This document shows positions 2,993-39,263 of a stretch of 39,263 nt of DNA, piece after piece. This stretch comes from a virus, in the IMG/VR virus record IMGVR_UViG_3300007963_000015, positions 1-39,263 of that record; one strand, 5' to 3'. The position numbers and the translations under genes are program-made. The number at the start of each line of letters is the position of its first letter. Within the stretch, counting starts at the first letter, position 1. The notes below the pieces were generated by a model. The model saw nothing but the letters and a program-made list of their open reading frames with translations. It was not told the DNA's origin and searched no databases.

Positions 2993-3332
2993 TCCCAAAT
3001 CTCCTTTTCATTTCTTTTTTGATTTGTTCTTCTTCTTTACCTAAGTCTTTAAGGAGTCCTTCATATCTATCTTTCTCAATCTGAATCAGATTTCTAACGT
3101 GGTCAGGATCTGAGTCATGATTGATATCCCTCTTAAATCTAATCAAACCTGTTTCATCGTCCTCCTCTCTATGTATTTCAGTTTCAGTATATGCATTATC
3201 ATCCTCTAGATTATGTTGAGATTGTGACTGCTGATGCCAACTACTACCCTCAATCTTTCTTTTGTTGTCGTGATACTCAGTGGTATCGAATGGCGAGTGA
3301 AATGTTCTGTCGTGTCGAATACGTTTTGGCAT
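2985..3332 (-). CDS. First gene of early operon; its start lies in a long inverted repeat, 115 aa
   Basis: The N-terminal third is basic and histidine-rich, the centre is acidic, and the C-terminal ~45 residues are a charged helix likely to form a coiled coil. I recognise no family. The ATG at 3332 follows AAAAGGAG by seven bases, so the frame open further upstream is ignored. This is the first gene after a good leftward promoter (3605-3633). Its ribosome-binding site and first ~23 codons form the left arm of the inverted repeat 3264-3572. In the mRNA the start would be paired with an upstream decayed copy, so translation may be strongly controlled by RNA folding. Confidence 0.7.
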   Translation of the reverse strand: MPKRIRHDRTFHSPFDTTEYHDNKRKIEGSSWHQQSQSQHNLEDDNAYTETEIHREEDDETGLIRFKRDINHDSDPDHVRNLIQIEKDRYEGLLKDLGKEEEQIKKEMKRRFGND

Positions 3333-3572
3333 GGTATGTCTCCTTTTCATGCCGCCTCCAATCAACTGACATCCAGCATGTCAACCCCAAAATTGCGTAG
3401 GATTTGCCGAGGAGCCACCGCACCGAAAGGCAAAGGCAAGCAATATTTTGGGGTTTACAGCTGGAAGTCAGTTGATAAAAGCGGTGCAGGAAAAGGAGAC
3501 TACCTGCTCTAAATGTGCACGACATCGACAGACATTTCCTAGACATTTCGATCCACTGAGTACCACGACAAC
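3264..3572. repeat. Long imperfect inverted repeat covering an operon leader and gene start
   Basis: Two arms of about 130 nt face each other around an axis at about 3418. Clear complementary blocks are 3264-3283 with 3553-3572 (20 nt, one difference that is a G-U pair in leftward RNA), 3338-3348 with 3490-3500 (11 of 11, including the Shine-Dalgarno site), 3361-3370 with 3467-3476 (10 of 10) and 3383-3392 with 3446-3455 (10 of 10). Every block has the same midpoint within one base. The left arm is the leader and first ~23 codons of the 115-aa gene. The right arm is a decayed inverted copy in which the start codon aligns with CTG. The leftward transcript starts just outside the right arm and would form one long rod. 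Confidence 0.9.
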
Positions 3573-3604
3573 TAAGGTTCCTTACAAACTCATTTGTTTT
3601 ACTT

Positions 3605-3699: not shown

Positions 3700-3814
3700 C
3701 TATATGCCACGAGTCTCTAGGGCCTAGGCCTCCTCAGCCCTAACCATTAGGCCCGCCCGCTTACCTCGGCTGCTCTGGATCTCCAGCTTAGAGCCGAGCC
3801 GCTAGGCCAAGGGC

Positions 3815-3846
3815 AAAAAAAACTCCGGGACCACTTGGCCCCGGAG
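3815..3846 (-). terminator. Intrinsic terminator after the 128-aa islet gene
   Basis: Read leftward, CTCCGGG and CCCGGAG form a GC-rich stem with a ten-base loop, followed by eight T. It lies 20 bases after the stop at 3867. A decayed version (CTCCGGGG...GTCCGACTG) is present at the matching place in the other arm, about 4882-4911, but without an intact stem or T run. Confidence 0.88.
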
Positions 3847-3866
3847 GAGATTGAACTGTTTTGGTG

Positions 3867-4253
3867 CTAGGCTATGTGCTTAGCAAACGTGGCTCTGATT
3901 GTCTCATTGCCCTTGGTCTGAATGGAATGGAACTCGATCTTGGTCCCCTTAGCAATCTTGAGATCCCGGAACTTGAGCGGTCCCTCAGCGATCAGAGTCA
4001 TGACTGCGAGGCAGAGGGCAGGATCGTAGTTGCTTGGGTAGCAAGACTTCTTGTCCTCAGTGACTGGGGAATGGACAGGTTGGTCGATCACAACAACGCC
4101 AAGACGCTCCTGTGAAGGGACCTTCTTGCCCGTGAGGTTGAAAATGCAGGCTGAACCTTTGACTGCGTCAATCTGATCCTTTAGGTCGAGGACATCGATA
4201 GTCTCGCCGAAGGGAATCAGAATGACAAGTTTCACCGTTTCTGGCTTGGACAT
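3867..4253 (-). CDS. Orphan 128-aa protein encoded in one arm of the giant inverted repeat
   Basis: No family is recognised. The protein alternates hydrophobic and polar residues in a way that suggests beta strands (VKLVILIPFG, LGVVVIDQP), has two to three cysteines, and lacks a signal peptide or membrane segment. The ATG at 4253 has AGAAAGG nine bases upstream, and the open upstream extension to 4304 is unlikely. Codons are GC-richer than in the rest of the phage, which suggests separate ancestry. The gene has its own terminator, but I see no convincing promoter. A full inverted copy lies at 4484-4864 with frameshifts and no start. A leftward RNA crossing both arms would fold the whole gene into a rod. 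Confidence 0.72.
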   Translation of the reverse strand: MSKPETVKLVILIPFGETIDVLDLKDQIDAVKGSACIFNLTGKKVPSQERLGVVVIDQPVHSPVTEDKKSCYPSNYDPALCLAVMTLIAEGPLKFRDLKIAKGTKIEFHSIQTKGNETIRATFAKHIA

Positions 4254-4483
4254 GATATTAACCTTTCTAAAAAAATGTGGTGTCCAATCTCGGAGGAACC
4301 GCAAGAGGGGAAGCGTCCAGCGTCAACCCAAATCTACGATTTTATCTTGCCCCCGCCCCACTGGACGGAGGGCAATAGAAAATCTTTGTTAGATTTGCGG
4401 TTTACGCAGGAGGAAGTCCCCTCTAGCGTCGTTCTGGAGGATTGGATACCTCTCATTTTTTTGATGGAAAGGTTAATAGCATC

Positions 4484-4864
4484 CTGTCCGTCTAAGCCAG
4501 ATACGGTCTGAAACGTGAGGAAATACCTGATTCTTCGGCGAGACCAATCGATTTGTCCGTCCTCGACCCAGAAGGTCAGATCAGACCAGTCTCAAAGATT
4601 CATGCTACTGCTTTCATCCTCACCAGCAAGAAGTCCCCACAGAGCAACTTGAACTGTGTTGTTGTGATTGACCACCAACTCTCTTCCATATCACTGAGGA
4701 CACTTCTTGCCTACCTCGCAACTTAACGATCCTGCCCTCGCCTCACGCTCTGACTGATCGTGGGACCGCACATTTCTAGGATCTCATTTGCTAAGGGGGC
4801 CGAGACCTGTTCACCATTCAGACCGGCTAATGAGACTATCGCCTCATTGCTCAGCACAGCCTAG
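4484..4864 (+). pseudogene. Decayed inverted copy of the 128-aa islet gene
   Basis: On the plus strand this 381-nt stretch aligns end to end with the 387-nt coding strand of the gene at 3867-4253. Shared blocks are TTCGGCGAGAC, GTTGTTGTGAT, CACTGAGGAC, TTGCTAAGGGG, CCATTCAGACC and the stop context AGCCTAGCACCA. The start codon position is CTG, and several indels that are not multiples of three destroy the reading frame. It cannot make the protein. Similarity continues outside the gene on both sides, so it is either a remnant of an inverted duplication or one half of a selected fold. Confidence 0.85.
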
Positions 4865-5096
4865 CACCACGTCTCACTCATCCTCCGGGGCTGTGGTCCG
4901 ACTGATTCTTTGCCCTTGGCCGCATTGTAACTGCGTGACCGTTAATACAGCGGCGAACTCTAGGATGGAGATCCTTTTCGCTGACCTCGGTATTTGCGGG
5001 CAAGGGCTGATAATGGTTAGGTGTCTGAGGGGGTCTAGGCCCCCCTGTAGTTGATGCAGTTCTGATATATATATCCGGCATCCACGATTTTTAATT

Positions 5097-6354: not shown

Positions 6355-6984
6355 ATGGCAGAAAAACAAGATCCAGAAATTGTTCCGCAAAGAACGAACA
6401 AAGTTGGAAGTTACCTCATACGAGAAGGGCGAAGAGAAGAAATGGCCAAAGCTATCGCCAACGGTCTTCACTTCGAGGATGCGGCAGAAAAGGCAGGGAT
6501 TCCTTACGAGGTTGCCCTTTCTGCGAGCCGGAAAGATCCTGAGTTTATGGCATGGTATGACGAATCTAGGAGTAGACCTCGAATAGAAAAAAAGCCTGCA
6601 AAAAAGTACAAGCCCAAAACGAGTTTGCAAATCAAAAGTGATTTTGTAAATAAACTAAGTCAAGTTGGTTTGTTTGACAAAATTGCTGTTATGGCAGAAG
6701 AAGCGGACCCGGCAACAGAAGAAGGGAAACAAGTGTTAGGTTTCTTTATGAGGTATGTTGTTAAAGACATTCTTCCAAAAGAAACAGCGGCAAAAGTAGA
6801 ACATACGGAAAAAGCCGCTTACGACACTATGACGGACGCAGAGTTACTAGAAATGCTACAAGACCGCCGCCAGCAAAGATTGGCGTATGATCAAGAAAGA
6901 AGTCAAGCAGACGGCCAAAGATCTTCTCATACCCAAAAGTACATAGAACAGGCACAGGAATACTATGAACGAGAAAGTGAATAG
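6355..6984 (+). CDS. terS: Terminase small subunit (probable), 209 aa
   Basis: The small terminase recognises phage DNA and hands it to the large subunit for packaging. The call rests on position directly upstream of, and overlapping by 20 nt, the large terminase, and on a helix-turn-helix-like N-terminal region (MAKAIANGLHFEDAAEKAG, about residues 30-50). A helical middle and a highly charged, Q/R/E-rich C-terminal tail follow, as in many small terminases. Length is in the usual range. No strong Shine-Dalgarno site precedes the ATG at 6355 (only AGGCGAG). It is the first gene of the long rightward virion block. Confidence 0.72.
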   Translation: MAEKQDPEIVPQRTNKVGSYLIREGRREEMAKAIANGLHFEDAAEKAGIPYEVALSASRKDPEFMAWYDESRSRPRIEKKPAKKYKPKTSLQIKSDFVNKLSQVGLFDKIAVMAEEADPATEEGKQVLGFFMRYVVKDILPKETAAKVEHTEKAAYDTMTDAELLEMLQDRRQQRLAYDQERSQADGQRSSHTQKYIEQAQEYYERESE

Positions 6985-8419
6985 AGACCAAATCCTTGAA
7001 GAACTTCGGCTAGAAGAAGAACTAGCTCGAAGAAAGGAGTACGACGTATTGGGGCGATTAGCTCCAAATAAACGTCAATGGGACTTTATTAACTGCCATT
7101 CTCACGAAACTATGTTTAGTGGACTAAACCAAGCGGGAAAGTCTACGGCTCTTTGCATTAAAGCGGCTTATCATCTCACAGGACTCTACCCCCCAGATTA
7201 TGTAGGGGTGCGTTTTGATAAGCCCGTGAACTGTGCGATAGGTGGTGAAACAGCACAGTCAACACGAGATTTGTTATGCGACAGACTGCTGGGAGATTCC
7301 TTAAACCGTGGGGGCGGTTATCTCCCGGCAGGTACTTTTGATCCTGAAAAAGACGTTAAACGTCTCAGTGGTGGTATTACTAACCAGATTGATTTCTTTC
7401 AGGTCAAGCACCACGACAAAAATGGGAACTTTGACGGGTACTCTAAATGCTACGTTTTCTCGTATTCAACAGGCTGGCAACGTCTACAAGGTTATACGCT
7501 TCATTGGATTGGGATTGACGAGGAACCGCCGTTCCCAGTTTATGACGAGTTCTCTGCTCGATTAAATGCCACTAATGGATACATGGATATCAGCATGACC
7601 CCTCTACAGGGGGAAACTCAACTGTATCTGATGTTTGACGAAAGCACCGATCACGAGGCTCGGTTCTTATTAAACTATGACATTGATGATGCTCAACACA
7701 TGACAGACGACGACAGAGAGCGTCTAATCAGCAAATACGAAAATCATCCGTTAGCAGAAGCTCGATTGCATGGCCGTCCGGTTCGTGGCCACGGTCTGAT
7801 TTATAATGTACCAGACGAGTTGCTATACGTTGAGGATTTCCAAGTACCGTCTCATTGGAAGAAAATCATAGGTTTAGATTTTCCTCATAGTGTAGGAAAC
7901 TTTGCGGCGGCGAAGATGGCCTACGATGAAGACAACGACGTATTATATTTGACAGGAGAATACAAAGAGGATAATAAAGAGAGTTACCATTATGCCCATC
8001 GAGCTTTAACAATGGGGGCAGGTCGAATACCTTGTGCATGGCCACATGACGCTGGCAGAAACTTTACTGACGGCTCAACCGTTGCACAGCGGTACAGAGA
8101 ACTGGGGTTAAATATGCTGAAGGAGTTTTCCCACAGCATCAACCCGGAGGGCAAAAAGACATTTGCAGTCATGCAGGTCATTGAAGAAGTGTGCGACCGT
8201 ATGGCTACAGGCAGGTTTAAGGTGTTCTTTACCTGTCAAGAGTTCATGAAAGAAAAGCGACGTTACAAGCATGACGCAGGTAAAGTCGCAAAAAGACAAG
8301 ACGATCACATTATCGACGCTATGCACAAAGCGGTGATGATGCTGAGATTCGCAGAATCTGAGGAACCAAATAAGGCACTCCCGCAAAAGTTGCCAGAGAT
8401 GGATTTCTTTAACTTTTAA
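6965..8419 (+). CDS. terL: Terminase large subunit, packaging ATPase and nuclease
   Basis: This enzyme cuts concatemeric DNA and pumps it into the procapsid using ATP. The N-terminal ATPase domain has a Walker A-type loop, SGLNQAGKST (about residues 52-61), and a Walker B, HWIGIDEEPP (about 180-190), with the catalytic E after D. The C-terminal RNase H-like nuclease begins with IIGLDFPHSVGNF (about 300), supplying the first D, and ends with a DDHIIDAMHKA segment (about 444-454), supplying the last acidic residues. At 484 aa it is close to the usual length. The ATG follows AGGAATACT and overlaps the small subunit. The Q-A-GKS form of Walker A groups it with Terminase_6-type enzymes. Confidence 0.95.
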   Translation: MNEKVNRDQILEELRLEEELARRKEYDVLGRLAPNKRQWDFINCHSHETMFSGLNQAGKSTALCIKAAYHLTGLYPPDYVGVRFDKPVNCAIGGETAQSTRDLLCDRLLGDSLNRGGGYLPAGTFDPEKDVKRLSGGITNQIDFFQVKHHDKNGNFDGYSKCYVFSYSTGWQRLQGYTLHWIGIDEEPPFPVYDEFSARLNATNGYMDISMTPLQGETQLYLMFDESTDHEARFLLNYDIDDAQHMTDDDRERLISKYENHPLAEARLHGRPVRGHGLIYNVPDELLYVEDFQVPSHWKKIIGLDFPHSVGNFAAAKMAYDEDNDVLYLTGEYKEDNKESYHYAHRALTMGAGRIPCAWPHDAGRNFTDGSTVAQRYRELGLNMLKEFSHSINPEGKKTFAVMQVIEEVCDRMATGRFKVFFTCQEFMKEKRRYKHDAGKVAKRQDDHIIDAMHKAVMMLRFAESEEPNKALPQKLPEMDFFNF

Positions 8420-9173: not shown

Positions 9174-10556
9174 ATGCACAGACCTCCAGTCCAAGAACTG
9201 ATTCACAGGTTTGACTACCTAAAGAAGCGACGTTTTAACTTTGAAAAAGCGTGGCAAGATATCAGTGATTTGATGATGCCGTATCGTGGTGACATTACTA
9301 CGAAACGCTCTACAGGATCACGAAGAGTCAAAGGTGTCTTCGATACTACTGCTATGAATGCGGCAGACTCTTTTGTGAACTTCATTAAAGGAGCCATCAT
9401 TCCTTCTGGTAATGATTGGGTGCGTCTTCACGCTAAAGCTCCCTACACTGATGTAATTCAAGTCAGACAGGTTTTAGATCTTGTTGCTGATAGAGTCTTA
9501 ACAGAACTTTCAAACTCTAACTTTTACAAAGAAGCCAGTGGGTTTTTGCGTGATTTTGCAGTGTTAGGGAATGGAACATTACACGTTCGTGAGGGCAAGC
9601 CCAAGTTTGGATCTAAAGGTCAGACCTTTGGAGGCTTGGTTTTTGAGGCTGTTCCTATTGGCCGTATGTGGTTTATGGTTGGTAACGAAGGTCGTCCAGA
9701 CTTTCTTGTTCGCCAAATAACCATGACGGCAGTTGATGCTATGCGTTTCTTTGATGGCAATGCCGGAGGAGATGCGGAGTATCATATCAATGCAGGCAAC
9801 CCTATGGAGGAATGTAACTTCCTTCATTTTGTTTACGAAAATGAAGACTTCCTCCCTCACGGCGTTCCTACTCCAGATAATAGAAAGTACGCCAGCATCT
9901 ACGTTTCTGGTTACGGTGATTTCGTAACTGGTACAGGTTCTATGTCAGAGCCAGCCATTGTTAAAGTTGGTGGTTTTGATCACTGCCCTTACATTGTGGC
10001 ACGTTGGATGGTGGTGGATGGGGAAGAGTACGGCAGAGGCAAGGGCCATTTGGCTCGTGCTGATGCTATGGGAATCAATGAACTACGCCGTCAGATTTTG
10101 ATTGCGGCAGGTAAAGATCTCAATCCTCCCCTTATGGTGGAACATGATACAGTTGTTGAGTTGGATATTACTCCTAACGGCCTTATGGTTACTCGGCCCC
10201 CCGTCAAAATGGGACCGCAGTACCTCAAGTCGGACACGAACTACCAAGTCGCAGACCTCATTGCGAGGCAAGACAGAGACCAAATCAAGAAAGCGTTTTT
10301 AGGAGACATTCTTGATGACCCAGAGACGCAACCAAGAAGTGCTGAAGAAAGTCGTCAAAGACAAACTCGTGCATTAAGCAGACTGGCGGCTTCGGCAGAT
10401 ACAGTAAACTATGAGTTTCTTGATCCCATGATTCAAAGTTGTATTGACATTATGTATCGTGGAGGAATGTTGCCGGAGTTGGACATGCTCCAAGAAATGG
10501 CTCCTGATGCAGAGTTTGAAATTGTGTATCAGTCTCCATTCTTTACTTCCCAATAA
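9174..10556 (+). CDS. Portal (head-tail connector) protein, cut short by an in-frame TAA
   Basis: This is a T7 gp8-type connector: a dodecameric ring at the head vertex through which DNA passes. Family signs are the N-terminal HRFDYLKKRR...W-x-D-I-S-D-L-M-M-P, then FDTTAMNAADSFVNF and GAIIPSGNDWVRL, a GRG-K-G segment with ARADAMGINELRRQ, and EESRQRQTRALSRL. The frame stops at TAA 10554-10556 after SPFFTSQ. The same frame then continues without interruption to 10832 with sequence expected for the connector C-terminus. The fused product would be about 552 residues, the usual connector size. The start ATG follows GAGGAATAAA. Explanations are a sequence error, a nonsense mutation, readthrough, or a truly two-piece portal. 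Confidence 0.93.
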   Translation: MHRPPVQELIHRFDYLKKRRFNFEKAWQDISDLMMPYRGDITTKRSTGSRRVKGVFDTTAMNAADSFVNFIKGAIIPSGNDWVRLHAKAPYTDVIQVRQVLDLVADRVLTELSNSNFYKEASGFLRDFAVLGNGTLHVREGKPKFGSKGQTFGGLVFEAVPIGRMWFMVGNEGRPDFLVRQITMTAVDAMRFFDGNAGGDAEYHINAGNPMEECNFLHFVYENEDFLPHGVPTPDNRKYASIYVSGYGDFVTGTGSMSEPAIVKVGGFDHCPYIVARWMVVDGEEYGRGKGHLARADAMGINELRRQILIAAGKDLNPPLMVEHDTVVELDITPNGLMVTRPPVKMGPQYLKSDTNYQVADLIARQDRDQIKKAFLGDILDDPETQPRSAEESRQRQTRALSRLAASADTVNYEFLDPMIQSCIDIMYRGGMLPELDMLQEMAPDAEFEIVYQSPFFTSQ

Positions 10557-10565
10557 GCTAGTGGC

Positions 10566-10832
10566 ATGAATCGTGTCAGTGCTTTCTTGGAAAGACGAAT
10601 GGCTTTGTATCAAGCTACACAGTCTCAAGCATACATTGATGATTTGAATCCTGACGCGATCTCTGCATACGATGCAAAGGTTAGCGATATCCCTGCTTCG
10701 ATTCTTAGAACGCCGGAAGAAGTAGGAGCGATTAGGCAAGCACGAGCACAAGAAGAAGCCATGCAAATGCAAATGATGCAAATGCAACAAATGGCTCAAA
10801 TGCAACAACAGCAACAAAGCGAAGAAATTTAA
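10566..10832 (+). CDS. Portal C-terminal part, in frame after the TAA
   Basis: This 88-codon open frame is in the same reading frame as the portal and starts three codons after its stop. Its content matches the connector tail: an RVSAFLERRMAL helix, then DAKVSDIPASILRTPEEV and A-I-R-Q-A-R-A-Q, ending in a long M/Q-rich run. Other connectors show the same order, with a Q-rich end. The ATG at 10566 lacks a good ribosome-binding site (CTAGTGGC), which argues against an independent gene. If CAA once stood at the TAA, the joint would read SQQASGMNR. Whether the piece is made alone, by readthrough or not at all cannot be told here. Confidence 0.7.
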   Translation: MNRVSAFLERRMALYQATQSQAYIDDLNPDAISAYDAKVSDIPASILRTPEEVGAIRQARAQEEAMQMQMMQMQQMAQMQQQQQSEEI

Positions 10833-11164
10833 TGATAAATATGCCAATGAATTTTAGTCAAACCTCTGGCGGTGGCGGTGGCTATCGAAGCGAAAGTGGT
10901 TTTTCTAGCTTTGGAGACGTTGCTAAAAGACAACTTGAAAAAGAGTACAAAAAGAAGAAAGTTAAAAAACTCGTAGCAGAAGCACAAGCAAATCATTATC
11001 GAGGGGCGGGTGATTTGCTTAATAGGATTAGGTTTGGTATGTCTTTGACTGACGCACAAATTGCACAACACAATGTTGCTACAGGTCAGAATCCTCGAAC
11101 TACTAGACCTAATTTTACAGATATGCTTGGATTCAAATACGCTAAAAATTTAGGAGTTCTTTGA
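10832..11164 (+). CDS. Unknown small basic protein, 110 aa
   Basis: The N-terminus is glycine- and serine-rich, followed by a strongly basic helix (RQLEKEYKKKKVKKLVAEAQ) and a mixed C-terminal half. No family is recognised. The start is uncertain: ATG at 10832 overlaps the preceding stop (TAATG), and two further in-frame ATGs lie at 10841 and 10847, none with a clear Shine-Dalgarno site. The stop overlaps the next start as TGATG. Located among portal and scaffold genes, it may be a minor virion protein. Confidence 0.6.
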   Translation: MINMPMNFSQTSGGGGGYRSESGFSSFGDVAKRQLEKEYKKKKVKKLVAEAQANHYRGAGDLLNRIRFGMSLTDAQIAQHNVATGQNPRTTRPNFTDMLGFKYAKNLGVL

Positions 11165-12492
11165 TGAGAAATCAAACAGGAATAAATGCAATTGAGGAGC
11201 TTTATGGAGTTCCATCACATAAAAAGTTTATTGACTTAAGACCTAAACCAAAACCAACACAGTTAAAGCAAGGTGGTTGGCGACGGAAAAGACAGCCTAG
11301 AGCAGGTACAGGGACCCATGAAACAGCAAAAATGGCTTACGACTTTATGGAGCCGGGATATGTTCATGCCGCTAGGACTGGAACAATCCCAGAGTCAATC
11401 TTTGGCAAGGCAATGCTTGGCGTAGAAACAACACTTGATCTTGCTCCCGGTCTTGGCAAAGTCGTTTCAGCGGCAATACCCTTTGGATTGATGAGAAAAG
11501 TAGATCCTGTCGAAATCCAAAGAAAAACTATTAACATAGGTGAACAAATAAGCAATACCGACATTTTTGATATACCTACTCTTGAAAAGTATATGCCTGA
11601 ACAGTTGGCTATGTCTATGCATAGACTGCCTCCAGTTCAACAACAAAAAGATATGCTTGAAACTACTAACCTATTAGATCTTATTCAGGGGGCTACTAAA
11701 AAAGAAACTAAAAAATGGCGTGAGAGTGTAAAAAGTTTGCCAGCCAGCCAGAGGGTGGGATTCCCAATCCATAACATTGACACAATGTATCCAGCAGGTA
11801 GTGACACAGGAGCCATTCTCGCCGATCAAATAGGATCAGCTCAGAATATGGATGATTTAGCGTTTAACCCTAACCTCCCTTTGTTTCAAGCAACTGCAAG
11901 AGCACAAGGAAACATTGAAACAGCCTCAAAACGCATTATTGAAAAACTTGGAAGTGGTGAAATAGAAAGAACTGTAGGCCACAAACAAAAAGCAAAACTT
12001 CTTAAAGATTACATTGCCGCAGAAGCCGACCGACAAGCACATCTAAAAGCATTTCCACAGGTAAAAAATAAAACAAAAGAAATCTTTAGAGAGTCTAAAA
12101 CCGAAGCAATGCGTCTTGGTGATAAATACGAAGCAGATGAAGTAACCCGCTTGTACGAAGAACACGCTTTTGGAAAAGGTCATGGAGACGAGTCTGCTAA
12201 ATATTTTCTTCCAGAGTTTCAAGCACAAGCGGCAAATGACGCAAAGCATTATCGTGCTGAAGAGTTCATGGAACAAATCAATGCACGAACAGAAGCAAAA
12301 GCAATAGAAACAGTTAAACGTAGCATTCCCGCTCAAACAAAAGAGATCAAGAATCAAATTCAAGAAACAGGAACCTACGATCCTAAAAACCGAATGCAAA
12401 GAGGTTTTGGAGAAGATGCTGAAGCACTTAGACAAATGCAAAAGAATCTTCAGTCGTACAATCCAATGAATATGAGAATTAGAAGTGTCTAA
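11164..12492 (+). CDS. Large unknown virion-region protein, 442 aa, with a shared N-terminal motif
   Basis: No family is recognised. Near the start (about residues 17-30) is SHKKFIDLRPKPKP, very similar in place and sequence to PPKSFVDLRSNKP in the next gene, so the two share an N-terminal module. The rest is a short hydrophobic stretch (about 80-105) and then a long, charged, helical region rich in K, E, Q and A. The ATG at 11164 has AGGAG seven bases upstream; the TTG at 11161 is too close to it. It overlaps the previous gene as TGATG and the next by 8 nt. Size, helix content and position suggest a protein packaged and ejected with the DNA. Confidence 0.7.
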   Translation: MRNQTGINAIEELYGVPSHKKFIDLRPKPKPTQLKQGGWRRKRQPRAGTGTHETAKMAYDFMEPGYVHAARTGTIPESIFGKAMLGVETTLDLAPGLGKVVSAAIPFGLMRKVDPVEIQRKTINIGEQISNTDIFDIPTLEKYMPEQLAMSMHRLPPVQQQKDMLETTNLLDLIQGATKKETKKWRESVKSLPASQRVGFPIHNIDTMYPAGSDTGAILADQIGSAQNMDDLAFNPNLPLFQATARAQGNIETASKRIIEKLGSGEIERTVGHKQKAKLLKDYIAAEADRQAHLKAFPQVKNKTKEIFRESKTEAMRLGDKYEADEVTRLYEEHAFGKGHGDESAKYFLPEFQAQAANDAKHYRAEEFMEQINARTEAKAIETVKRSIPAQTKEIKNQIQETGTYDPKNRMQRGFGEDAEALRQMQKNLQSYNPMNMRIRSV

Positions 12493-17886: not shown

Positions 17887-18249
17887 TTGGCTACACCATT
17901 CGATCCCTCTAACCCGGAACCTAGAGGGCTAGAAAGTCCTTTAATATCTATTGCCGATCTGAAGACTCAGGTCGCAAATGGTGATATTTTACTTGCAACT
18001 CAAGATAGTCTAACTGACGAGTGGTTTTGGTCTGGTCCATTTGAATGGGTCGAAGACGAAGACGACGGTTGGGTTTCTTTTCGATTTGGTGCTTTCGTAT
18101 GGAAAGACCAAACAAGATTTCCGGATCGAAAAGCTTTAGTCAGAGTTTCAAATATGGCTTTGGTAAGACTTCCTAAAATAAGCTCACCTTCTTATCAAGA
18201 AATTAATGAAGAATATAGAGCCGGGTGGCCAGAGCCTCCGTCATGGTAA
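17887..18249 (+). CDS. Unknown tryptophan-rich protein, 120 aa
   Basis: The protein is acidic with clustered aromatics (DEWFWSGPFEWVEDEDDGWVSFRFG) and ends in P-E-P-P-S-W. No family is recognised. The start is probably TTG at 17887, which gives MATPFDPSN and has GGAGGA just upstream. The TTG at 17884 is too near the ribosome-binding site. It follows the terminator closely and overlaps the giant tail gene by 25 nt. It may be a partner or assembly factor for that protein, inferred from overlap only. Confidence 0.6.
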   Translation: MATPFDPSNPEPRGLESPLISIADLKTQVANGDILLATQDSLTDEWFWSGPFEWVEDEDDGWVSFRFGAFVWKDQTRFPDRKALVRVSNMALVRLPKISSPSYQEINEEYRAGWPEPPSW

Positions 18250-21131
18250 TAGCAGGAAATTCTTGGATACGGGCTGGCACTGGAACTAGTGGCGAACCTG
18301 CTCAAATAAACGGAGTCAATGAAGCCGCCAACTACACAATGTCTTCAACGACTGAAGTTATTTCTCTTTGTGCAGGAGCGGCAGACAATAACGATAGATT
18401 TGAGCCTGATGATACAAGCGAAGGCAGTGCTACGCTTTCTCATCGAGTAGTAGGGACTACTAGTTGGAGCACAACGGGAACTTCTAGCACAGCAAACGGT
18501 CCTTATATTGCATCGAACTCTGTTCTTGTTCATGACACTGCTGTTTCTTCAACAATGCAGGTAACAAGCCCCCCTTCTGGAGAAAATGCTAATGACTATG
18601 TAGCGGCAGGAAGGCAACACGAAACTTCAAATCGTTTGGACATGGCGGCTGAGTGCCGAAGAGGTTGGACAGAAGTACAGTTTGGTGTTGGCTTTGGTTC
18701 TAGTACAAGTGCGGGAGCACAGTATGAGTTTAGGGTTGCGTGGCAGGCAAAAGATGGCAACCTAAATACTATACTTGCTTCGAGGTTAACAAGTGCATCT
18801 TCTGCTGTAGATTATACACGATCTGCTACTGAAGCAGTCGGCGTTGCTGATGATCTCACCCTTGGACATGGAAGATCATTAAGTGATAATGTAACAAGAT
18901 TTTTTTCCATTAATCCTCCTGAAGCCGTTTCGACAAAAACTGTAAACTACACAAGAGCGGCTAGCAGTTTTCCTTTTGCTTTTGACACTATTATTGATCC
19001 AAAGATTCAGGTTGAAAAAGTTCTTTCTGAATCAATAACATCAGGTGATTCAGTTCTCCCTGACCACGATCAGGCTTATACAAGAACTCCAGACGATGAG
19101 TCTGTTGTTGCTTCTGACTCTGCTGTTGTTTCGATTAGTTTTGTAAAAACTGACGGTGTAACAGTAAGCGATTCAGGAGCAAGAGATCACGATCAAGCAT
19201 ACACAAGGGCACCTGATGACGAGTCTGTAACAGTAGGAGACTCAGCATCTTTAGCAATCGCATTTGTTGCAGATGATTCTTTAGCAGTCTCTGACACACC
19301 TGTTGTTGACGAAGACAATGCATACACAAGAGCACCGGATGACGAATCGGTTGCTGTTTTTGATGACGCTACTTTTGCTCTCTCTATTGTTCAACAAGAT
19401 GGTGTTGCTGTTGCAGATACCCCTGTAACAGATCACGACGATGACCAACTCGCTGTTGCAGAAGACACTTTTACGGTATCTGATTCTGTTTCTTTGGTTA
19501 TTAGCGTTGCCCCTGATTCTTCTGTTCAGGTAGATGATGAACCTACTGTAGACGAAGACAACGTTGTAACTAGGGCTAAACAAGAAGATGTTGCTGTTGC
19601 CGACGATGTATTGCTGGCTGTTTCTTTGGGTGTTTCCGAAGGAGCAACCGTTAGCGACAGCATTGCAACGGACCATGATAACGACCAGCAGGATACGGCT
19701 TCTGAACTTGCAACTGTTTCTGATTCCGTTTCAACAGTTGCTACATTTGCAGTTACACCAGAGGATGCGTTTGTAGTATCAGACAGCGTTTCTTCTGCTA
19801 TTTCTACAACCACAAGCAATACTGAATCATTAACGATTTCTGATTCGGTTGATACTGCTATTGCATTTGTAGAAACGCCTTCAGATGCGGCTGTAGTTTC
19901 TGAAGATGTTAATGCAGACAAAGATGGTTCAGTTACAAGACAACTTTCTGAGCCTGTTCTTGTTGACGATAGCGTCAATCTTGGGCTGTCACTGGTTACT
20001 CCTGATACAGGAACAGTTAGTGATTCTGCAAATGCAGTTAAAGGATCTCCTCTTGTCAGAGAAGTAGAAGATTCTATATCAGCCGGAGACGGAACTGGTA
20101 TTGGAATCGGAATCGATGTTGGGGATCAGTTCGAGATTGATGACCGTGGAAACCTTACTCACGGCAGAAATCCTGAAGAAGAAGTTAGCATTGATGACTT
20201 CCCCCTAAAAACAAGACAGCCAAAATGCGGTGCAGGAGTAGAAGATTCTAATATCCTCGACATTACCTTTATAAAGGTAAGCGAAGTAACTGTTGGCGAC
20301 TCTGCTACTGCAAATAAACAACAAGACCTTGAAGAGCAAATCACGGATGAAGCAGGAGTAACTGATTCCGTAACGCTTGTTCAACCAATAAGAAGAGAAA
20401 TAACAGCCACCATCGTTGGTGATGGGGGCATTGATCCAAATCTAATGAAAGAGGCACAAGCCGTGGCTACCATAGATGTTTGGAATGTGGCATTGAATGC
20501 CTTGGGTATTAGCACTTTGGAGACAACCACTGGCAATAATCCTCAGCAGACACTGCTTAACAACACATTCCCCTTGTTTAGAAAACAGTTCTTATCTGAC
20601 CATCTATGGAATGGTGCTAAGAAAACAGCAGACCTTACCAAACTGGACGTAAACACCACCGATCAGTCAGTGGCTAATCGTTGGAAGTACGTCTATGTCC
20701 TTCCCACAGACTGCATGAGGGTTTGGCGTTTGAACGGTCAGGAAAACAAACCCGTTCATGTTGGAGGCAACTCTAATATCTACACCAATAGGTGGGAGAT
20801 TGAAGTTGTTACCAAAGGAACTACAGGTGGCGACACCAATACAGGTAAGTACAGAGCATTATGCACTAACGAAGACGAAGCTCGCATTGAGTATGTCTTT
20901 GATGTAGGAAATGATATTGATCTGCTTGGTCCACTTACACAGCACGCAATGGGATTAACACTTGCCGCATTTGTTGCTACTAACTTTGGTAAGTCTGCAA
21001 GTGAAATAGCACAACTTGAGGCTCAAGCTAATAATGCTATTACAGCCGCTAAGGGTGTAGACGGTCAGGAAGGTACTCCTCAAATGTTTGGAGATACCAG
21101 TCTTTTGGGCGTTAGGTCGATTGGCTACTAA
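18225..21131 (+). CDS. Giant repeat protein fused to tail tubular protein A (adaptor), 968 aa
   Basis: The last ~225 residues (from about 743) are a T7 gp11-type adaptor. The signs are VATIDVWNVALNALGI, then LFRKQFLSDHLWNGAKK, YVLPTDCMRVWRLNG, EARIEYVFDVGND and LTQHAMGLTLAAFVATNFG. Such adaptors are normally about 200 aa and stand alone. Here one uninterrupted frame adds about 740 residues in front. Residues 1-~210 look beta-rich. From about 279 there are tandem, acidic ~41-residue repeats with DHDQAYTRAPDDESV and TVSDS/VVSDS motifs. I found no ribosome-binding site near the ATG that opens the adaptor part, so a true fusion is likely. In T7 the fibre docks where gp11 meets gp12, so this extension may serve as a fibre. 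The start is GTG 18225 or ATG 18243. Confidence 0.85.
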   Translation: MARASVMVIAGNSWIRAGTGTSGEPAQINGVNEAANYTMSSTTEVISLCAGAADNNDRFEPDDTSEGSATLSHRVVGTTSWSTTGTSSTANGPYIASNSVLVHDTAVSSTMQVTSPPSGENANDYVAAGRQHETSNRLDMAAECRRGWTEVQFGVGFGSSTSAGAQYEFRVAWQAKDGNLNTILASRLTSASSAVDYTRSATEAVGVADDLTLGHGRSLSDNVTRFFSINPPEAVSTKTVNYTRAASSFPFAFDTIIDPKIQVEKVLSESITSGDSVLPDHDQAYTRTPDDESVVASDSAVVSISFVKTDGVTVSDSGARDHDQAYTRAPDDESVTVGDSASLAIAFVADDSLAVSDTPVVDEDNAYTRAPDDESVAVFDDATFALSIVQQDGVAVADTPVTDHDDDQLAVAEDTFTVSDSVSLVISVAPDSSVQVDDEPTVDEDNVVTRAKQEDVAVADDVLLAVSLGVSEGATVSDSIATDHDNDQQDTASELATVSDSVSTVATFAVTPEDAFVVSDSVSSAISTTTSNTESLTISDSVDTAIAFVETPSDAAVVSEDVNADKDGSVTRQLSEPVLVDDSVNLGLSLVTPDTGTVSDSANAVKGSPLVREVEDSISAGDGTGIGIGIDVGDQFEIDDRGNLTHGRNPEEEVSIDDFPLKTRQPKCGAGVEDSNILDITFIKVSEVTVGDSATANKQQDLEEQITDEAGVTDSVTLVQPIRREITATIVGDGGIDPNLMKEAQAVATIDVWNVALNALGISTLETTTGNNPQQTLLNNTFPLFRKQFLSDHLWNGAKKTADLTKLDVNTTDQSVANRWKYVYVLPTDCMRVWRLNGQENKPVHVGGNSNIYTNRWEIEVVTKGTTGGDTNTGKYRALCTNEDEARIEYVFDVGNDIDLLGPLTQHAMGLTLAAFVATNFGKSASEIAQLEAQANNAITAAKGVDGQEGTPQMFGDTSLLGVRSIGY
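19063..20040 (+). repeat. Tandem ~41-residue acidic repeats within the adaptor fusion
   Basis: The DNA encodes successive units beginning DHDQAYTRTPDDESV, DHDQAYTRAPDDESV and DEDNAYTRAPDDESV, about 123 bases apart. More diverged units follow with DHDDDQ, DEDNVVTR and DHDNDQ openings and VSDSV cores. Early units are most alike and later ones drift. The many D residues may bind calcium. Nucleotide identity between units is moderate, so the array looks old rather than freshly expanded. Confidence 0.8.
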
Positions 21132-24100
21132 TGGTATACATAGCACAACAATCTTTTGGCACTGGAGAAGTAGACCCGAACATTCGGGCACAGTACGACT
21201 CTATGCCCTACAAAACAGGGTGTCAGATTCTTGAAAATGCTTATCTTAGCGATACAGGTTCAGCTCTAAAACGTTGGGGTTCTACTGTATTTTCTACAAG
21301 TTCTGGTCAGTATAAAGCGTTTAGTTTCGTAAACTCATACGGCGAAACTTACTACATCTTAAACATTGTTGATTCTGGTACATCGGGATACAAGATTATT
21401 CGTGCTTCTAATGCTACTGTAATTTCTACTTATACTAACAGCGAGACTTCTAACTCTTCCGAGTACGTTAAAGACATTGCTTCTTCTGGAACTCAGTTGT
21501 TTGTTATGACTATCGAGGGTGTTTACTCTCACATTATTCATGATGACAAAGACAAAAGAACACACCTGACAGATCTAAATATTGGAATCCTTGAAAGCGT
21601 CAATCCTGTTTCATTAATTGTTACTAATCACCCTGAAGCATCGACTCATTACAAAGGCTTGAAGGTTACAAGTAGTCAAAAAGTCTTTAATAAGAATGAC
21701 GTTGGCACTCTTTGGAAACTAATGCCGGGGCCTTCTTCAGAAGATATTACTCCTGTGTTTAGAGAGTTAGATGCAAGAAACTTTCAGGATTCATTTAACC
21801 CTGTAAGCGAGACTTTGGATGCTCCTGATTATCCATTTGTATCTGAAACAGAAGTACGAATGGAAAATTACTTTGTCGATGACAATGAAAACCCTGACAA
21901 ATACGGAGTTGCTAAAAATGTTTACCTTAAACAAGGACACACAGTTTCTAGCAACACTTTAGTAGCAACTCATACTTTAACTAATCAAGACTCTACTGGA
22001 GCAGATGAGGCTTATTGCAGAATCTATAATATTGGCGACTTAAACATTCAACATCGATACAGCACAGGAGATCCTTTTGTTCCATACAAAGAAGGCGAAA
22101 TTATTTCCTTTACTTTAACAAATGGCTCAAAAAATATTGCATTTGAGTCTGCTTACAATACTGTTTCAGGAACTCAGTCTGCTGAAACTATTGTTAAGAT
22201 TGAAACCAGAGAAGGAACTAACTCCACAAGAGATTTTTGGGAGTTTCCAAATACCGACATTACACCAAACATTCAGGTTCCCGGATCGGATCAACTTGCT
22301 GAAGGTCAGTACGATTGGTCAGGTCCATACACTAACTGGGTAACTATTGGAAAAATATTCACTAACTACAATGGAAGTGAAGACGTTACAGGTGTTATTA
22401 AAAATGCTACATGGAATACAAATCTAAATCAGACTCCAGTTCTTCTGTCTACACTTGTAACAGATGCTACGTCTTCTGCTTCTTTGATTACTGACGATCA
22501 TAAAAAGGCTTTAACTCAAGGTGCAGTTGGAGTTATTGAGCAGTGCATTGGCTCTAGCGTCTACAATAAAACTTACTTCTACGTTTCTAAAAAGAAGTTC
22601 GTGGAAGATAACGGAACAAAAGTACCTAACAATACTGATGATCCATATGTGACTTTGATTACAGGGCAACCTTTGATCCCTCCTGTTGCTGTAGATGCTG
22701 ACAACCCAATGTACACAACATTGAAAATCAGACTTGCATCTAGCACTGACAACTCTGGAACAAATAAAACTAGCGATGGTCTTGCTGTAAACAGAAATGG
22801 TTTGTTTGCTGATGCTCTTGTGAGAGACAATAACTACCGGGTTGGCTTGGTTGGAAGTGCAAGTGCCAGCGTTGATATTACTTCTTACGACGTTTCAGCG
22901 TATGGAACTTCAACTAATATTATTAATGGCACTACTTCTTTTACCAACAAAGTATTCTTGACCAATCTGATTGGCGATACTAATCCGGGACCAAAAACAA
23001 ACACCTTTAGAATTTCGCAGTTTGAAATAGACAACGAACATACTAATGTGTTCAATACTTCTACAGAAGGACAAGCAGGATCTTACTACTGGAAAATGAC
23101 TGAAGAAGCGTTTAATCCAGTAACCGCATCTGGAAAAACAAAAGAAGTTCTCGCTTACGCTGAAATTGTAGAATACCACCAAGAAAGATTGTTTCTTTCA
23201 GGCTTCAAAGTTTCGGATGCAATCAAAGACATCTCTACGGCACAAAGAGTTCCTTTGACAATCCTTGCTAGCAAATCAGGCAATACAAATAACTTTCAAA
23301 CAGGACCTAATGGTGACGATGGGTTGTCTGTTGCGGTTGCTTCTAAGGATGGTGGCTACATTCAGTGGCTTAAAAGCCTTGGCAATGCTCTTTTTGTAGG
23401 TAGTGACGAAGAAGAGTTCATTATTGCAGACGCTCCAATGACTCCTACTTCCTTAAATATTTCAAGACAGTCTAATTACGGCTCTAGAGAAGATGTAAGT
23501 GCTAAAGTATATGGCAATGCAGTTCTTTATGTTACTAAAGACGGCAAATCTGTTAGGGCATTAAACTTTAATGAAAGAACAAATCGATACGAATCGGACG
23601 ATTTGCTTCAATATGCTAAACATTTAACTAAATCAGAGCGAATTAAGAAGATTGAAGTAGTTCATACTGCTACTCCTCTGCTTATGGCCCTGACTGAATC
23701 TGGCAAACTGTATTGTTTTACCTCAAAAACCAAAAACTCGGTGTATGGTTGGTCTGAATGGAGCAACTCTCAACTTGGAACCTTTAGCGAGATTGTTTCT
23801 GGCCGAGATTCTTCGAGTAATCCTTGTCTTTTTGCTCGTTGCTCTAATCTTTCTTCTGGTGCTGGCTCCGTTCTTATTACTTCAGACGATACTAGGCTAG
23901 ATTATCTTTTAGATTACGCAACTGAAGTAGATACAGATCAATCAGCTCCTCTTTCGAGCGTGACTAGCAGTGCATACGCGAATAAAACCGTTTCTGTCAT
24001 AGTCAAAAAGACTACAGGCGAAGAAGTTTACGTTGGCGACTATGTAGCAAGTGCTCTTGGGGTGATTACTTTTGACGGATTGTCCTTTAATAACGTCGAT

Positions 24101-24433
24101 AAGGTTATTCTTGGTCTTCCGTACACCATGAAGTTGGCACCAAACATTCCAGAAGTAATGATGCCCGGCAAAGGTAGCACTTTGGGTAGAGATAAAAATG
24201 TAAGTAGGCTTAGGATCTTCTTTAATCAGGTGTTAGGAGCTGTAGCCGCTGGCTATAACGTGTTTCCGGTGCCTTTGGATACAAAAGATGCGGCACCTAC
24301 GAATACTGCTGGATTCTATTCTGTCCCGGTAATCGGTCAGTATGGTCCCCAGCCTACAATCATCATTGAACAATCCGCTCCATACTCATTTGAAGTTAGC
24401 GGATATAACGCTGAATATGACTTTGGAGATTAA
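21131..24433 (+). CDS. Tail tubular protein B (tail nozzle), 1100 aa
   Basis: T7 gp12-type proteins form the tail nozzle below the adaptor ring. The N-terminus has the family opening: QQSFGTGEVDPNIRAQYDSMPYKTG, then a CQILENAYLSDTGSALKRWG stretch (compare gp12 'SFxxGExSP...Y..G...ENF...GxxxRR'). The C-terminal half contains VEYHQERLFLSGF, the conserved 'RLxF' region, and SDEEEFIIADAP and GSREDVSAKVYGNAVLYVTKDG. At 1100 aa it is longer than T7 gp12 (about 790), mostly by insertions in the middle. The ATG overlaps the adaptor stop by one base. The pair builds the short tail together. Confidence 0.9.
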   Translation: MVYIAQQSFGTGEVDPNIRAQYDSMPYKTGCQILENAYLSDTGSALKRWGSTVFSTSSGQYKAFSFVNSYGETYYILNIVDSGTSGYKIIRASNATVISTYTNSETSNSSEYVKDIASSGTQLFVMTIEGVYSHIIHDDKDKRTHLTDLNIGILESVNPVSLIVTNHPEASTHYKGLKVTSSQKVFNKNDVGTLWKLMPGPSSEDITPVFRELDARNFQDSFNPVSETLDAPDYPFVSETEVRMENYFVDDNENPDKYGVAKNVYLKQGHTVSSNTLVATHTLTNQDSTGADEAYCRIYNIGDLNIQHRYSTGDPFVPYKEGEIISFTLTNGSKNIAFESAYNTVSGTQSAETIVKIETREGTNSTRDFWEFPNTDITPNIQVPGSDQLAEGQYDWSGPYTNWVTIGKIFTNYNGSEDVTGVIKNATWNTNLNQTPVLLSTLVTDATSSASLITDDHKKALTQGAVGVIEQCIGSSVYNKTYFYVSKKKFVEDNGTKVPNNTDDPYVTLITGQPLIPPVAVDADNPMYTTLKIRLASSTDNSGTNKTSDGLAVNRNGLFADALVRDNNYRVGLVGSASASVDITSYDVSAYGTSTNIINGTTSFTNKVFLTNLIGDTNPGPKTNTFRISQFEIDNEHTNVFNTSTEGQAGSYYWKMTEEAFNPVTASGKTKEVLAYAEIVEYHQERLFLSGFKVSDAIKDISTAQRVPLTILASKSGNTNNFQTGPNGDDGLSVAVASKDGGYIQWLKSLGNALFVGSDEEEFIIADAPMTPTSLNISRQSNYGSREDVSAKVYGNAVLYVTKDGKSVRALNFNERTNRYESDDLLQYAKHLTKSERIKKIEVVHTATPLLMALTESGKLYCFTSKTKNSVYGWSEWSNSQLGTFSEIVSGRDSSSNPCLFARCSNLSSGAGSVLITSDDTRLDYLLDYATEVDTDQSAPLSSVTSSAYANKTVSVIVKKTTGEEVYVGDYVASALGVITFDGLSFNNVDKVILGLPYTMKLAPNIPEVMMPGKGSTLGRDKNVSRLRIFFNQVLGAVAAGYNVFPVPLDTKDAAPTNTAGFYSVPVIGQYGPQPTIIIEQSAPYSFEVSGYNAEYDFGD

Positions 24434-24435
24434 TC

Positions 24436-24969
24436 ATGGCAGTAGATCCAGTTTCCGCTATTGGCTTCGGATTAAAACTTGGCGGGGCAATATTTGGTCA
24501 TAAGGCCAAAAAGGAACTTCTTAACAAACAGTTTGCCTTGCAACAAAAAATGATCAGGCAGGGTGCCGCAGATCAAAGGAGAATGTCTTCTGAGAAATCT
24601 GAAGATCTTCAAGGACGCATGAAATCTACAATGGGTGCTACTGGTGGTAAAATGGGTAGCGGTCAGTTTACTGCTTTGTTAGCAGATCAGGGTTCTGATT
24701 TTAACTTTGAGCAAAGAATGATTGCAAACCAAGAGCAGAACGCCATTGATAAAGCCGCTATGGAATTCAAGGCTGGCAAGAAAGCGGCTAATACCGAACT
24801 GTTTGCCAATGTTGGAAGTGCTGTAATGGGTGGTGGTGCTAGAGACTTTAAGCATTACTTAGGCAAAGGCATGGAGGGTCTTGGTGGACTGCTTACTGGC
24901 GAAGGCAATGCTCCTGTCGACATTTTTCAATACGGTCCAGACGCAGGTGGCGGAAGTCTATTCAGTTAG
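24436..24969 (+). CDS. Internal virion protein, gp14-like, 177 aa
   Basis: Position and form match T7 gp14, a small internal core protein ejected into the outer membrane at infection. The protein begins with a small hydrophobic glycine-rich segment (SAIGFGLKLGGAIFG), then a helical Q/K/R-rich middle (QFALQQKMIRQGAADQRRM), and a glycine-rich end. It lies between tail tubular protein B and two very large internal proteins, the T7 order gp12-gp14-gp15-gp16. Sequence similarity alone would be weak at this size. Confidence 0.72.
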   Translation: MAVDPVSAIGFGLKLGGAIFGHKAKKELLNKQFALQQKMIRQGAADQRRMSSEKSEDLQGRMKSTMGATGGKMGSGQFTALLADQGSDFNFEQRMIANQEQNAIDKAAMEFKAGKKAANTELFANVGSAVMGGGARDFKHYLGKGMEGLGGLLTGEGNAPVDIFQYGPDAGGGSLFS

Positions 24970-24976
24970 GTAAAAC

Positions 24977-27900
24977 ATGGCAAATTTAAGAATCCCTTCG
25001 AGCGTTAATAGTTCTAGGCAAATGCCTAGATTGCCTGATATTCCCGGAGCCAAGGTAGATATCGCAATCGGTAACGCTTTGAATAAATTGGGTCAGTCTT
25101 TAACAGACTACGCAAAAAGCGAAGCTGTTCGTTCTGATAAGCTCTTAATGGGTTCTGCTGGAATTCAAGGGATTATAGAAGCTTCGATTGAACAAACTCA
25201 AAACTTCTATGAGTTTGACGATTCAGGCGGGATTGACTATGAGCAATCTATTCTGAAGTCTAATAACATCGTTGAGTATTCAGAAGCGACATGGGAAGAG
25301 GCTCGTCAAAATGCTATGGAGCAAGTCGAGAACCTGCCATGGAAAACTTCCGATGTAAAAAAATCTGCCGTTGCTACTGTTGAAAGTGCATTTAAGAGCC
25401 AAACTAACCAGCAGATAAAATTAAACTTAGTAAAACAACAAGATCAGTTAAAATCAGACTATGTAGAATCTCTACTTACGGAGGCTTCATTCGATCCTGA
25501 CACAAATATTGCCCAAGTTATTGATACTGCAACCAACACCATAGAGTCTATGGCCGATTCTACGAAGGCCAAACAGAATTTCCTTGTCAGGGCTAAGACC
25601 TACATTAATAACGCCTCTCTGACCCGCTCAGGGGCCTTAGAAATCTTTCAGGGAACCGACAACCAGTACCTTCAGCCCTTGTTCAATGCTGTTACAGGCA
25701 ATGCAAAAAGAACTTTGAAGAATGCTTTAGGCTTATCTTCATCTAATGCAGATAGTACAGACATGACTGTTACCCCTGTAGATATAGGGGCACTTGGCGA
25801 GGCAAAAATTGCATTCGAATCAATGCCTGACGGTTCAAATAAATCGGCTATGGCGTTGTTGATTGCCGAAGCAGATGCTCAGGCTAAGTATAATGCAAAC
25901 ATTATTCTTCAAGCCTCTGCATTAACTCAAGGTAGCAACGATATCCTTGACGACCCTAAAGGCGTGGATAGTTACCTTGCTAAAAGAGATGCTTATCTTT
26001 CAATGGATGAAGATCAGTTCATTTCTTTCCTTGATGGATACAGCAAGTTTACCTATCTCCCTCCTAACATTGCTAGTTACGTTAATGAGTTTCTCTCTCA
26101 ATCTTCGTACAACACTCGTGAGTTGCAGTTGGTTAATGAGTTGGCTGATAGGTACAACCAAACAAAACTGCATGGAGTTTCCGATCAATCCAAAGCAAGA
26201 CTTCAAACATGGATTGAAAATAGACATCTTAAAGATGAGGATCGACTTGCTGTTTCAATGTTGGTTGAAGGCACAACGCTAAGCGAAGCAGAACAAGGCC
26301 ACATTAATGGGCTTAAACTCCAAACCAATCCCACTGGTCTTTTTGGTTGGTTTGATTCTCAGTTAGAAGATTTCTTAGAAGCAAATGCTCTTGATGATGA
26401 ATACGACTGGGATGAGTTGACTCCTGTACAGCAACAAATGATTGCAAATAAACTTAATCTTCAGATTCAAACCGAAGCCAAAATCGCAAAGGCTAGTAAA
26501 AACGATATCCTTGCTATAAGTGGTGAGGTTATTAGAAAAAGAGCACTTCGTTCTTTGCTTAACAACAGCATTATTGTTCCTGCTCCGGGTTCTGAAGCAC
26601 CTTTGTACATTCCCTTTGACCTTAATGTCAGAAAAAAGAATGGACAACTGGATCAAATCTCAGTTCAAAATGTGATTCAGTTTTACAGGGACAATCTTAT
26701 TAAGCACGTTAAGAATGCTGACCCCACTCTTTCGGGAGAAGACTTAAAAGAAGAAGTAGACAAACTGATTCCTAATATGTCAGTCTTTCCGAACCCTCTG
26801 GAGATTGGCACCTACACAATGAGAACTGAAGAAGGTGATGTCATTGGATATCTTGACCCTCAGCTTCTCGTGCAGGATCAGTATGTTCCTTCTGCGATCC
26901 TTTCTTCTTACGAACTAGACCCTGCTAGTCCTGACTTCATCTTGAAACAAACCTCTCCTTTTTCTCCTGAGCAAAAAGAAGACTTTGATTCTTGGAAATA
27001 CGAAGATCCTACTAAAGAAGAATCGATTCAGTTGTACCCATTCAAGGAACAGTTTGCTGAAGTTCTATCTGACGAGTCATTTAAGGCTCTGCCTGTAGAT
27101 CAGCAATACGATATGCTTCAAATGCTGGGCGATAGATTGGTTGTTACTTCTAAGGCTGACCCATACTTAATGATTCCTGAGTTCAGACGAATCTACCAAC
27201 AAGAGTACGAAAACTTTTTGGAATCACAAAAGGTAACGGCTGGCGTAGTGCCCGGAGTTGGGCCAACTACAAATGTTCTTCCCAAACTTATCAAGAACAC
27301 AATGCCTTCTGATTGGAAAAACGACCTCGATGAACTGCCTTGGGACGCAGGTAGGCCACAGTTTAAGGATCAAGAGTGGTACGACATTAGTTACCCTGAG
27401 TTTGAGGGAACATTAGAAGCCGAATGGGTGTATCAGATCTACGATAAGGCTGTAGATACTTACACAGAAACTCTGCAAAATATGTCAGAAAGCCAACTTC
27501 GTACCGTATATAACAAGGCGAAGTCTGCTTCTATCACAGGTCTTGATCTAGGCATTGAGCACTTTACTCCGCTTGGTGTTCTTCAGGGCTACAAAGAAGC
27601 CGCCAAGATTAAAAACAAATCCTTTGTCACCGTTCTTAAAAGCAAAATTGAACGCATGGCTGAGGTTAATGACCCTACCTTAAAACCTACAATCATTCAG
27701 CAGTTAGTTCCTACTGATACAAAGATCTACGCTATTATCGAAAGCGAATCAGACGCTACGCTTTCTAAAAGAATGCGAACAATCTCTAGTGCTGAGGCTT
27801 CAGAGTTGCGTAATGCAGAAGTTGACATGGCTCTTCCTGAAGATTTTGTACGCATTGCCTTAATGGATTTGGCTGTTGATAAACAAATGGCTCAAATCAT

Positions 27901-27982
27901 TGCAGGTATGAGTGACAAAAGGATGAGTAGGTTCCTTAAGAAGTTCTTACAGACAAAGGTTATTGGCAATGGATTACAGTAA
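24977..27982 (+). CDS. Internal virion protein, gp15-like, 1001 aa
   Basis: In T7 gp15 forms part of the periplasmic tube through which DNA enters the cell. This protein is long, almost entirely helical, and acidic, without a signal peptide, as expected. It opens with a basic polar tail and LPDIPGAKVDIAIGNALNKLGQSLTDYAKSE-type helix, typical of podovirus core proteins. It follows the gp14-like gene with a 7-nt gap (AGG ribosome-binding site) and overlaps the next gene by 14 nt. No enzymatic motif is seen. The call depends on size, composition and gene order. Confidence 0.76.
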   Translation: MANLRIPSSVNSSRQMPRLPDIPGAKVDIAIGNALNKLGQSLTDYAKSEAVRSDKLLMGSAGIQGIIEASIEQTQNFYEFDDSGGIDYEQSILKSNNIVEYSEATWEEARQNAMEQVENLPWKTSDVKKSAVATVESAFKSQTNQQIKLNLVKQQDQLKSDYVESLLTEASFDPDTNIAQVIDTATNTIESMADSTKAKQNFLVRAKTYINNASLTRSGALEIFQGTDNQYLQPLFNAVTGNAKRTLKNALGLSSSNADSTDMTVTPVDIGALGEAKIAFESMPDGSNKSAMALLIAEADAQAKYNANIILQASALTQGSNDILDDPKGVDSYLAKRDAYLSMDEDQFISFLDGYSKFTYLPPNIASYVNEFLSQSSYNTRELQLVNELADRYNQTKLHGVSDQSKARLQTWIENRHLKDEDRLAVSMLVEGTTLSEAEQGHINGLKLQTNPTGLFGWFDSQLEDFLEANALDDEYDWDELTPVQQQMIANKLNLQIQTEAKIAKASKNDILAISGEVIRKRALRSLLNNSIIVPAPGSEAPLYIPFDLNVRKKNGQLDQISVQNVIQFYRDNLIKHVKNADPTLSGEDLKEEVDKLIPNMSVFPNPLEIGTYTMRTEEGDVIGYLDPQLLVQDQYVPSAILSSYELDPASPDFILKQTSPFSPEQKEDFDSWKYEDPTKEESIQLYPFKEQFAEVLSDESFKALPVDQQYDMLQMLGDRLVVTSKADPYLMIPEFRRIYQQEYENFLESQKVTAGVVPGVGPTTNVLPKLIKNTMPSDWKNDLDELPWDAGRPQFKDQEWYDISYPEFEGTLEAEWVYQIYDKAVDTYTETLQNMSESQLRTVYNKAKSASITGLDLGIEHFTPLGVLQGYKEAAKIKNKSFVTVLKSKIERMAEVNDPTLKPTIIQQLVPTDTKIYAIIESESDATLSKRMRTISSAEASELRNAEVDMALPEDFVRIALMDLAVDKQMAQIIAGMSDKRMSRFLKKFLQTKVIGNGLQ

Positions 27983-35403: not shown

Positions 35404-35935
35404 TGCTCATTTCCATTTCGGTATTTTTTCTTCTGACTCGAAGAATGGTGTTTGCTATACTTTTGGATGCAATAACTTCGTCAGATAGTCCTTCTTGTCG
35501 AGACCATTCTTTTATTTTAGGTAGGTCTTTTTCTTCTAAAGGGCATCCATTGGCGAACCACCACTCTACTGAGTTCTTTGCTTTTTGCAACCCACTGATC
35601 CATGCTCTGGCATTTGTTGAGTTTTGCACTGCGTGTCTGTATTCATTTGGATCACAATAGTCTAACCCCATTAATTTTTTCAAAAGAGCATCGACTGTTG
35701 TAAGCATTTGTTTTCCTACATAGTTGTGCTTTAATTCTTCACTGACATCTGGCAAGTTTCTTTCTTGCATATAACTAATAATCCAAGTGTCACTACTATC
35801 GCAACAAACGTAATGCTGATCTTTGAAATCGTTGTGAACTCTAATGTACACCCTTCCAAGATAAGTAAATATCTCGGAAATGGTGCCATCAAAGTTCAAC
35901 TTTTCAAACTTCTTATTCGCTACTGCTGTCTCCAT
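35390..35935 (-). CDS. Unknown early protein, 181 aa
   Basis: The N-terminal third is beta-like (ISEIFTYLGRVYIRVHNDF) and includes a C-C pair. The rest is helical and ends with a charged R/K/E tail. No family is recognised. The ATG at 35935 follows AAGGAGACAG, a good site, and overlaps the recT stop by 23 nt, so it is translationally coupled to recT. It may assist recombination; this rests on adjacency. Confidence 0.72.
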   Translation of the reverse strand: METAVANKKFEKLNFDGTISEIFTYLGRVYIRVHNDFKDQHYVCCDSSDTWIISYMQERNLPDVSEELKHNYVGKQMLTTVDALLKKLMGLDYCDPNEYRHAVQNSTNARAWISGLQKAKNSVEWWFANGCPLEEKDLPKIKEWSRQEGLSDEVIASKSIANTILRVRRKNTEMEMSSETR

Positions 35936-38590: not shown

Positions 38591-38614
38591 TACTATTTTA
38601 TAAGAATAATAAAT

Positions 38615-39258: not shown

Positions 39259-39263
39259 TTCAC

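Follow-up and report, generated by a model that had tools for sequence, protein, structure and literature searches.

The portal (head-tail connector) gene of this virus is interrupted by a single in-frame stop codon, and the locus therefore raises the question of whether the stop belongs to the phage lineage, as a site of readthrough or as the boundary of a two-chain portal, or to this one assembled sequence. The DNA that we analyzed, hereafter the window, comprises all 39,263 bases of one IMG/VR virus record. We examined the frame and its family, the corresponding codon in related genomes, and the remaining features of the window, and then weighed the possible explanations of the stop.

The portal frame and its family

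The frame occupies positions 9174-10832 of the plus strand. It opens with an ATG at 9174, runs for 460 codons (9174-10553) to a TAA at 10554-10556, after which a further 91 sense codons (codons 462-552; 10557-10829) follow in phase up to a terminal TAA at 10830-10832. An earlier note on this DNA, made from the sequence alone, had described a single in-frame TAA inside a portal gene of about 552 residues, and both points hold, as 552 aa is also the length found in intact sister genomes. The note was likewise right that the frame past the stop continues with the portal C-terminus, although its count of 92 codons has to be corrected to 91.

Both sides of the stop belong to the same protein family. 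The phrog_332 profile matches the part 5' of the stop with an E value of 5.5e-73 (model positions 11-453) and the part 3' of it, searched alone, with an E value of 3.3e-9 (positions 471-541 of 560), so the open frame after the TAA is not a product of chance. In addition, a match to the Pfam family PF12236 (Head-tail_con) spans the stop, covering model positions 2-489 of 489 with one TAA inside, and its 254 bits exceed the curated cut-off of 27. Among solved structures, the nearest by sequence to codons 1-460 is that of a portal protein (8ck0_A, E value of 7e-38). The gene also has the position expected in a head/packaging cluster, following the large terminase (ORF 6965-8419) and preceding a protease-like gene at 14215 and a major head protein gene at 15201. 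Thus, the window gene resembles the portals of T7-type podoviruses (PF12236; phrog_332) in its full-length model match, in its total of 552 aa, and in its place shortly 3' of the large terminase, from which a single ORF separates it; the sole difference is the TAA, which is found in the window only. Portals of Pelagibacter phages (EXVC032P Baldr, HTVC035P, HTVC100P, and others) are among the nearest annotated phage relatives, and the protein match covers 98-100% of the part upstream of the stop, although identity is only 25-28%. No nucleotide similarity to any phage record was found, and a scan of host-genome contigs returned no relatives of the portal.

Given that a truncated product would end at codon 460, we considered which part of the protein would be lost. 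Portals of the Head-tail_con family are expected to form dodecameric rings with wing, stem, clip, and crown. The crown of T7 gp8 is built from the C-terminal part of the protein, and a hinge connects the first helix of the crown to the last strand of the wing (PMC6702177); the crown contacts the core proteins and possibly senses DNA pressure (PMC6702177). An AF2 model of the intact sister protein, built from 12 sequences and of low confidence (mean pLDDT 54.7, pTM 0.42), places the last strand at residues 448-452 and helices at 455-482, 493-503, and 514-548. By analogy with T7 gp8, in which the crown starts directly behind the final wing strand (PMC6702177), the mainly helical segment encoded at 10557-10829 would correspond to the crown. 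In the model the stop falls a few residues beyond that strand, and almost all of the crown would be missing from a product that terminates at codon 461. The note had expected a truncated connector to lack part of the crown; on this analogy and the low-confidence model, the crown would indeed be affected, and its loss would be nearly complete rather than partial. A crownless portal of this kind, ending at the wing-crown junction, would presumably be defective in assembly or packaging.

The stop position in related genomes

Related portal genes were found at 25 loci in a scan of a single collection, IMG/VR, with protein identities of 45-100%. Each of them encodes Lys or Arg directly after the conserved motif SPFFT(S/A)Q and stays open into the C-terminal part, so that none carries a stop at the site; the 12 representative relatives that we traced to their own stop codons encode one chain of 552-573 aa. 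The closest relatives are IMGVR_UViG_3300006929_000268 (L002/L027) and 3300025151_005627, which stem from other metagenome records and share 99.9% identity with the window over 13.7 kb and 10.6 kb, respectively. These partial contigs represent the same phage species as the window by DNA identity and show few other substitutions, but unlike the window they have an intact portal gene. Both read AAA at 10554-10556, which is their sole difference from the window within the 1,659-bp gene, and AAA is also present in a 90% relative (L004). An exact-sequence search found no other IMG/VR record with the TAA allele, although such a search may omit records very near the window. Judged by these alignments, the TAA is private to this single contig and not a feature of the lineage.

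The comparison with sister genomes, which the earlier note had called for, also bears on the origin of the stop. The note had proposed a C-to-T change of CAA. We rejected this origin, as the relatives have AAA, AAG, or Arg codons at the site and Gln is encoded by the codon before it. Since the sisters have AAA, the stop would instead stem from an A-to-T transversion, here within an A-run. Beyond the stop, the portal tail differs from that of L004 by 18 nucleotides in synonymous codons versus 3 nonsynonymous codons. The tail is thus conserved as coding sequence; this conservation predates the stop and is therefore uninformative on readthrough.

We further compared the 6.1 kb common to the window and the two sisters. 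Private differences numbered six in the window, one in 3300006929_000268, and none in 3300025151_005627. Four of the six window-private differences are transversions (10554, 12063, 12064, and 12074), and at each of these positions L004 has the base of the sisters. Three of them fall within 12 bp (12063-12074, plus strand) of ORF 11161-12492, and this cluster hints at local consensus or assembly errors. A window-only transition at 11572 lies inside the same 10554-12074 stretch. With that transition set aside, the other differences between the window and its sisters comprise 17 transitions and 3 transversions, and within the genes examined they are mostly synonymous, a pattern like that of natural variation. 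Transversions thus make up four of five differences in 10554-12074 versus 3 of 20 elsewhere (Fisher p 0.012, for a region chosen post hoc), a contrast that is suggestive of consensus errors in the 10.5-12.1 kb part of the assembly. Separately, at 38600-38669 the window differs from its sister contig L032 by seven transitions in 70 bp, the two genomes being otherwise nearly identical; this tract may be a local hot spot or may have been recombined.

Genome ends, other genes, and long hairpins

The sister contig L032 links base 39263 of the window to base 1 via 379 bp that are absent from the window, and L029 shows the same end join with a similar insert. The join in L032 indicates that the window is nearly the whole of a circularly mapping or permuted genome of ~39.6 kb. 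Genes outside the head/packaging cluster include, all on the minus strand, those for an ArdC-like antirestriction/metallopeptidase protein (1203-2237), RecT (35913-37013), a YqaJ-type recombinase domain (36994-37908), and a protein with two helix-turn-helix domains (37908-38531). The region 18225-33011 holds very long ORFs of 968, 1,100, 1,001, and 1,682 aa. A Pfam scan of the first three gave no match, and the 968-aa ORF has a partial match to a tail protein. Peptide-pattern scans of IMG/VR found no relatives of the 1,100-aa ORF or of the first 1,012 residues of the 1,682-aa ORF.

Positions 3805-4921 form an imperfect palindrome of ~1.1 kb (71%), which folds as a single giant rod with many small bulges. 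Folded as RNA, it has a predicted energy of -636 kcal/mol, compared with -371 +/- 9 kcal/mol for 15 mononucleotide shuffles. The hairpin is kept in the sister L027/L032 and in L029, in which the aligned region is ~86% identical, and where base pairs are altered on both sides they stay standard pairs in 19 of 23 cases, that is, the changes are compensatory. An exact 20-mer from the palindrome was found in those two contigs only; the window gave no match to Rfam families, and phage records gave none to 3805-4921. A second, smaller hairpin of ~0.3 kb lies at about 3261-3575 (-173 kcal/mol for a 390-nt segment) and is also present in L029 at 4413-4726. The larger element, which may be a sizeable structured RNA or a hairpin in the DNA, is far more unusual than the portal stop.

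Explanations of the stop

We consider it very probable that a single-base change private to one assembled contig created the TAA and that the lineage itself makes a regular portal consisting of one chain of 552 aa. Two of the alternatives listed in the earlier note, a sequencing error and a defective genome, survive as the two branches of this explanation. We lean toward the former, in that the TAA is probably a sequencing, amplification, or consensus error of the metagenome assembly. It is possible, though we hold this with less confidence, that the stop is a real nonsense allele, namely a true A-to-T change carried by a sub-population or a defective genome, perhaps rescued by a co-infecting intact phage, that would yield a crownless portal of 460 aa. 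The real-looking polymorphism elsewhere between the window and its sisters, mostly transitions and mostly synonymous in the genes examined, suggests that they represent different populations, in which a private mutation could arise, and the window is intact in its other late genes open to comparison. However, a crownless portal would be expected to be counter-selected, a consensus contig would be expected to carry the majority allele, and the clustering of window-only transversions nearby points to local error. We rejected the idea that the genome is decaying under many lesions: in the late region compared, the portal alone is interrupted in its sense frame, the other stops listed there falling in opposite-strand, off-frame, or upstream-extension frames. 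No further gene break supported by relatives was found in the late-gene region compared; the 3' half of the late region (~18.5-35 kb) had no near relatives, and other lesions may lie there.

The note had also named readthrough and a two-chain portal. As features of the lineage, both are contradicted by the sense codon present in the two 99.9% sisters and in 23 further relatives. Programmed or suppressor-tRNA readthrough, which would give portals of 460 and 552 aa, is highly improbable: the downstream frame is open and encodes conserved portal sequence, but the stop is absent even from the nearest sisters, the window contains no tRNA genes, and RNA folding behind the stop is ordinary, with z scores of -0.42, -0.75, and -0.50 for three stretches and thus no sign of a stimulatory structure. 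In addition, TAA is the terminator of 19 of the 26 gene models that we examined, whose 10,665 codons include a single in-frame TAA. This usage bears out the note's view that general recoding is unlikely, and we rejected recoding of the kind known from recoded phages, in which late genes use the codon as sense throughout and a suppressor tRNA is often encoded, given that TAA is a normal terminator here and a suppressor tRNA is lacking. A literature search, judged by titles and the starts of abstracts, found nothing on point concerning readthrough of portal genes. Separate translation of the C-terminal part is extremely improbable. An ATG is present at 10566 (codon 465 of the full frame), but it is not preceded by a Shine-Dalgarno-like sequence (AATAAGCTAGTGGC) such as the portal gene has (ACCGAGGAATAAA), and at codon 465 the relatives have mostly Val and in some cases Ser or Leu, in an uninterrupted frame. 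An internal restart was thus discarded, its start being unconserved and without a ribosome-binding site.

The private change that we favor carries a caution beyond this phage, in that single in-frame stops in metagenome-assembled phage genes ought to be checked against sister contigs before they are read as signs of readthrough or split proteins. It is very unlikely that the TAA is real in the population and tolerated, whether because the host suppresses the stop, because the portal can do without its crown, or because the crown is provided separately, with a crownless or two-form portal as the result. If the stop were nevertheless real and tolerated, the essentiality of the portal crown in T7-like phages would come into question.
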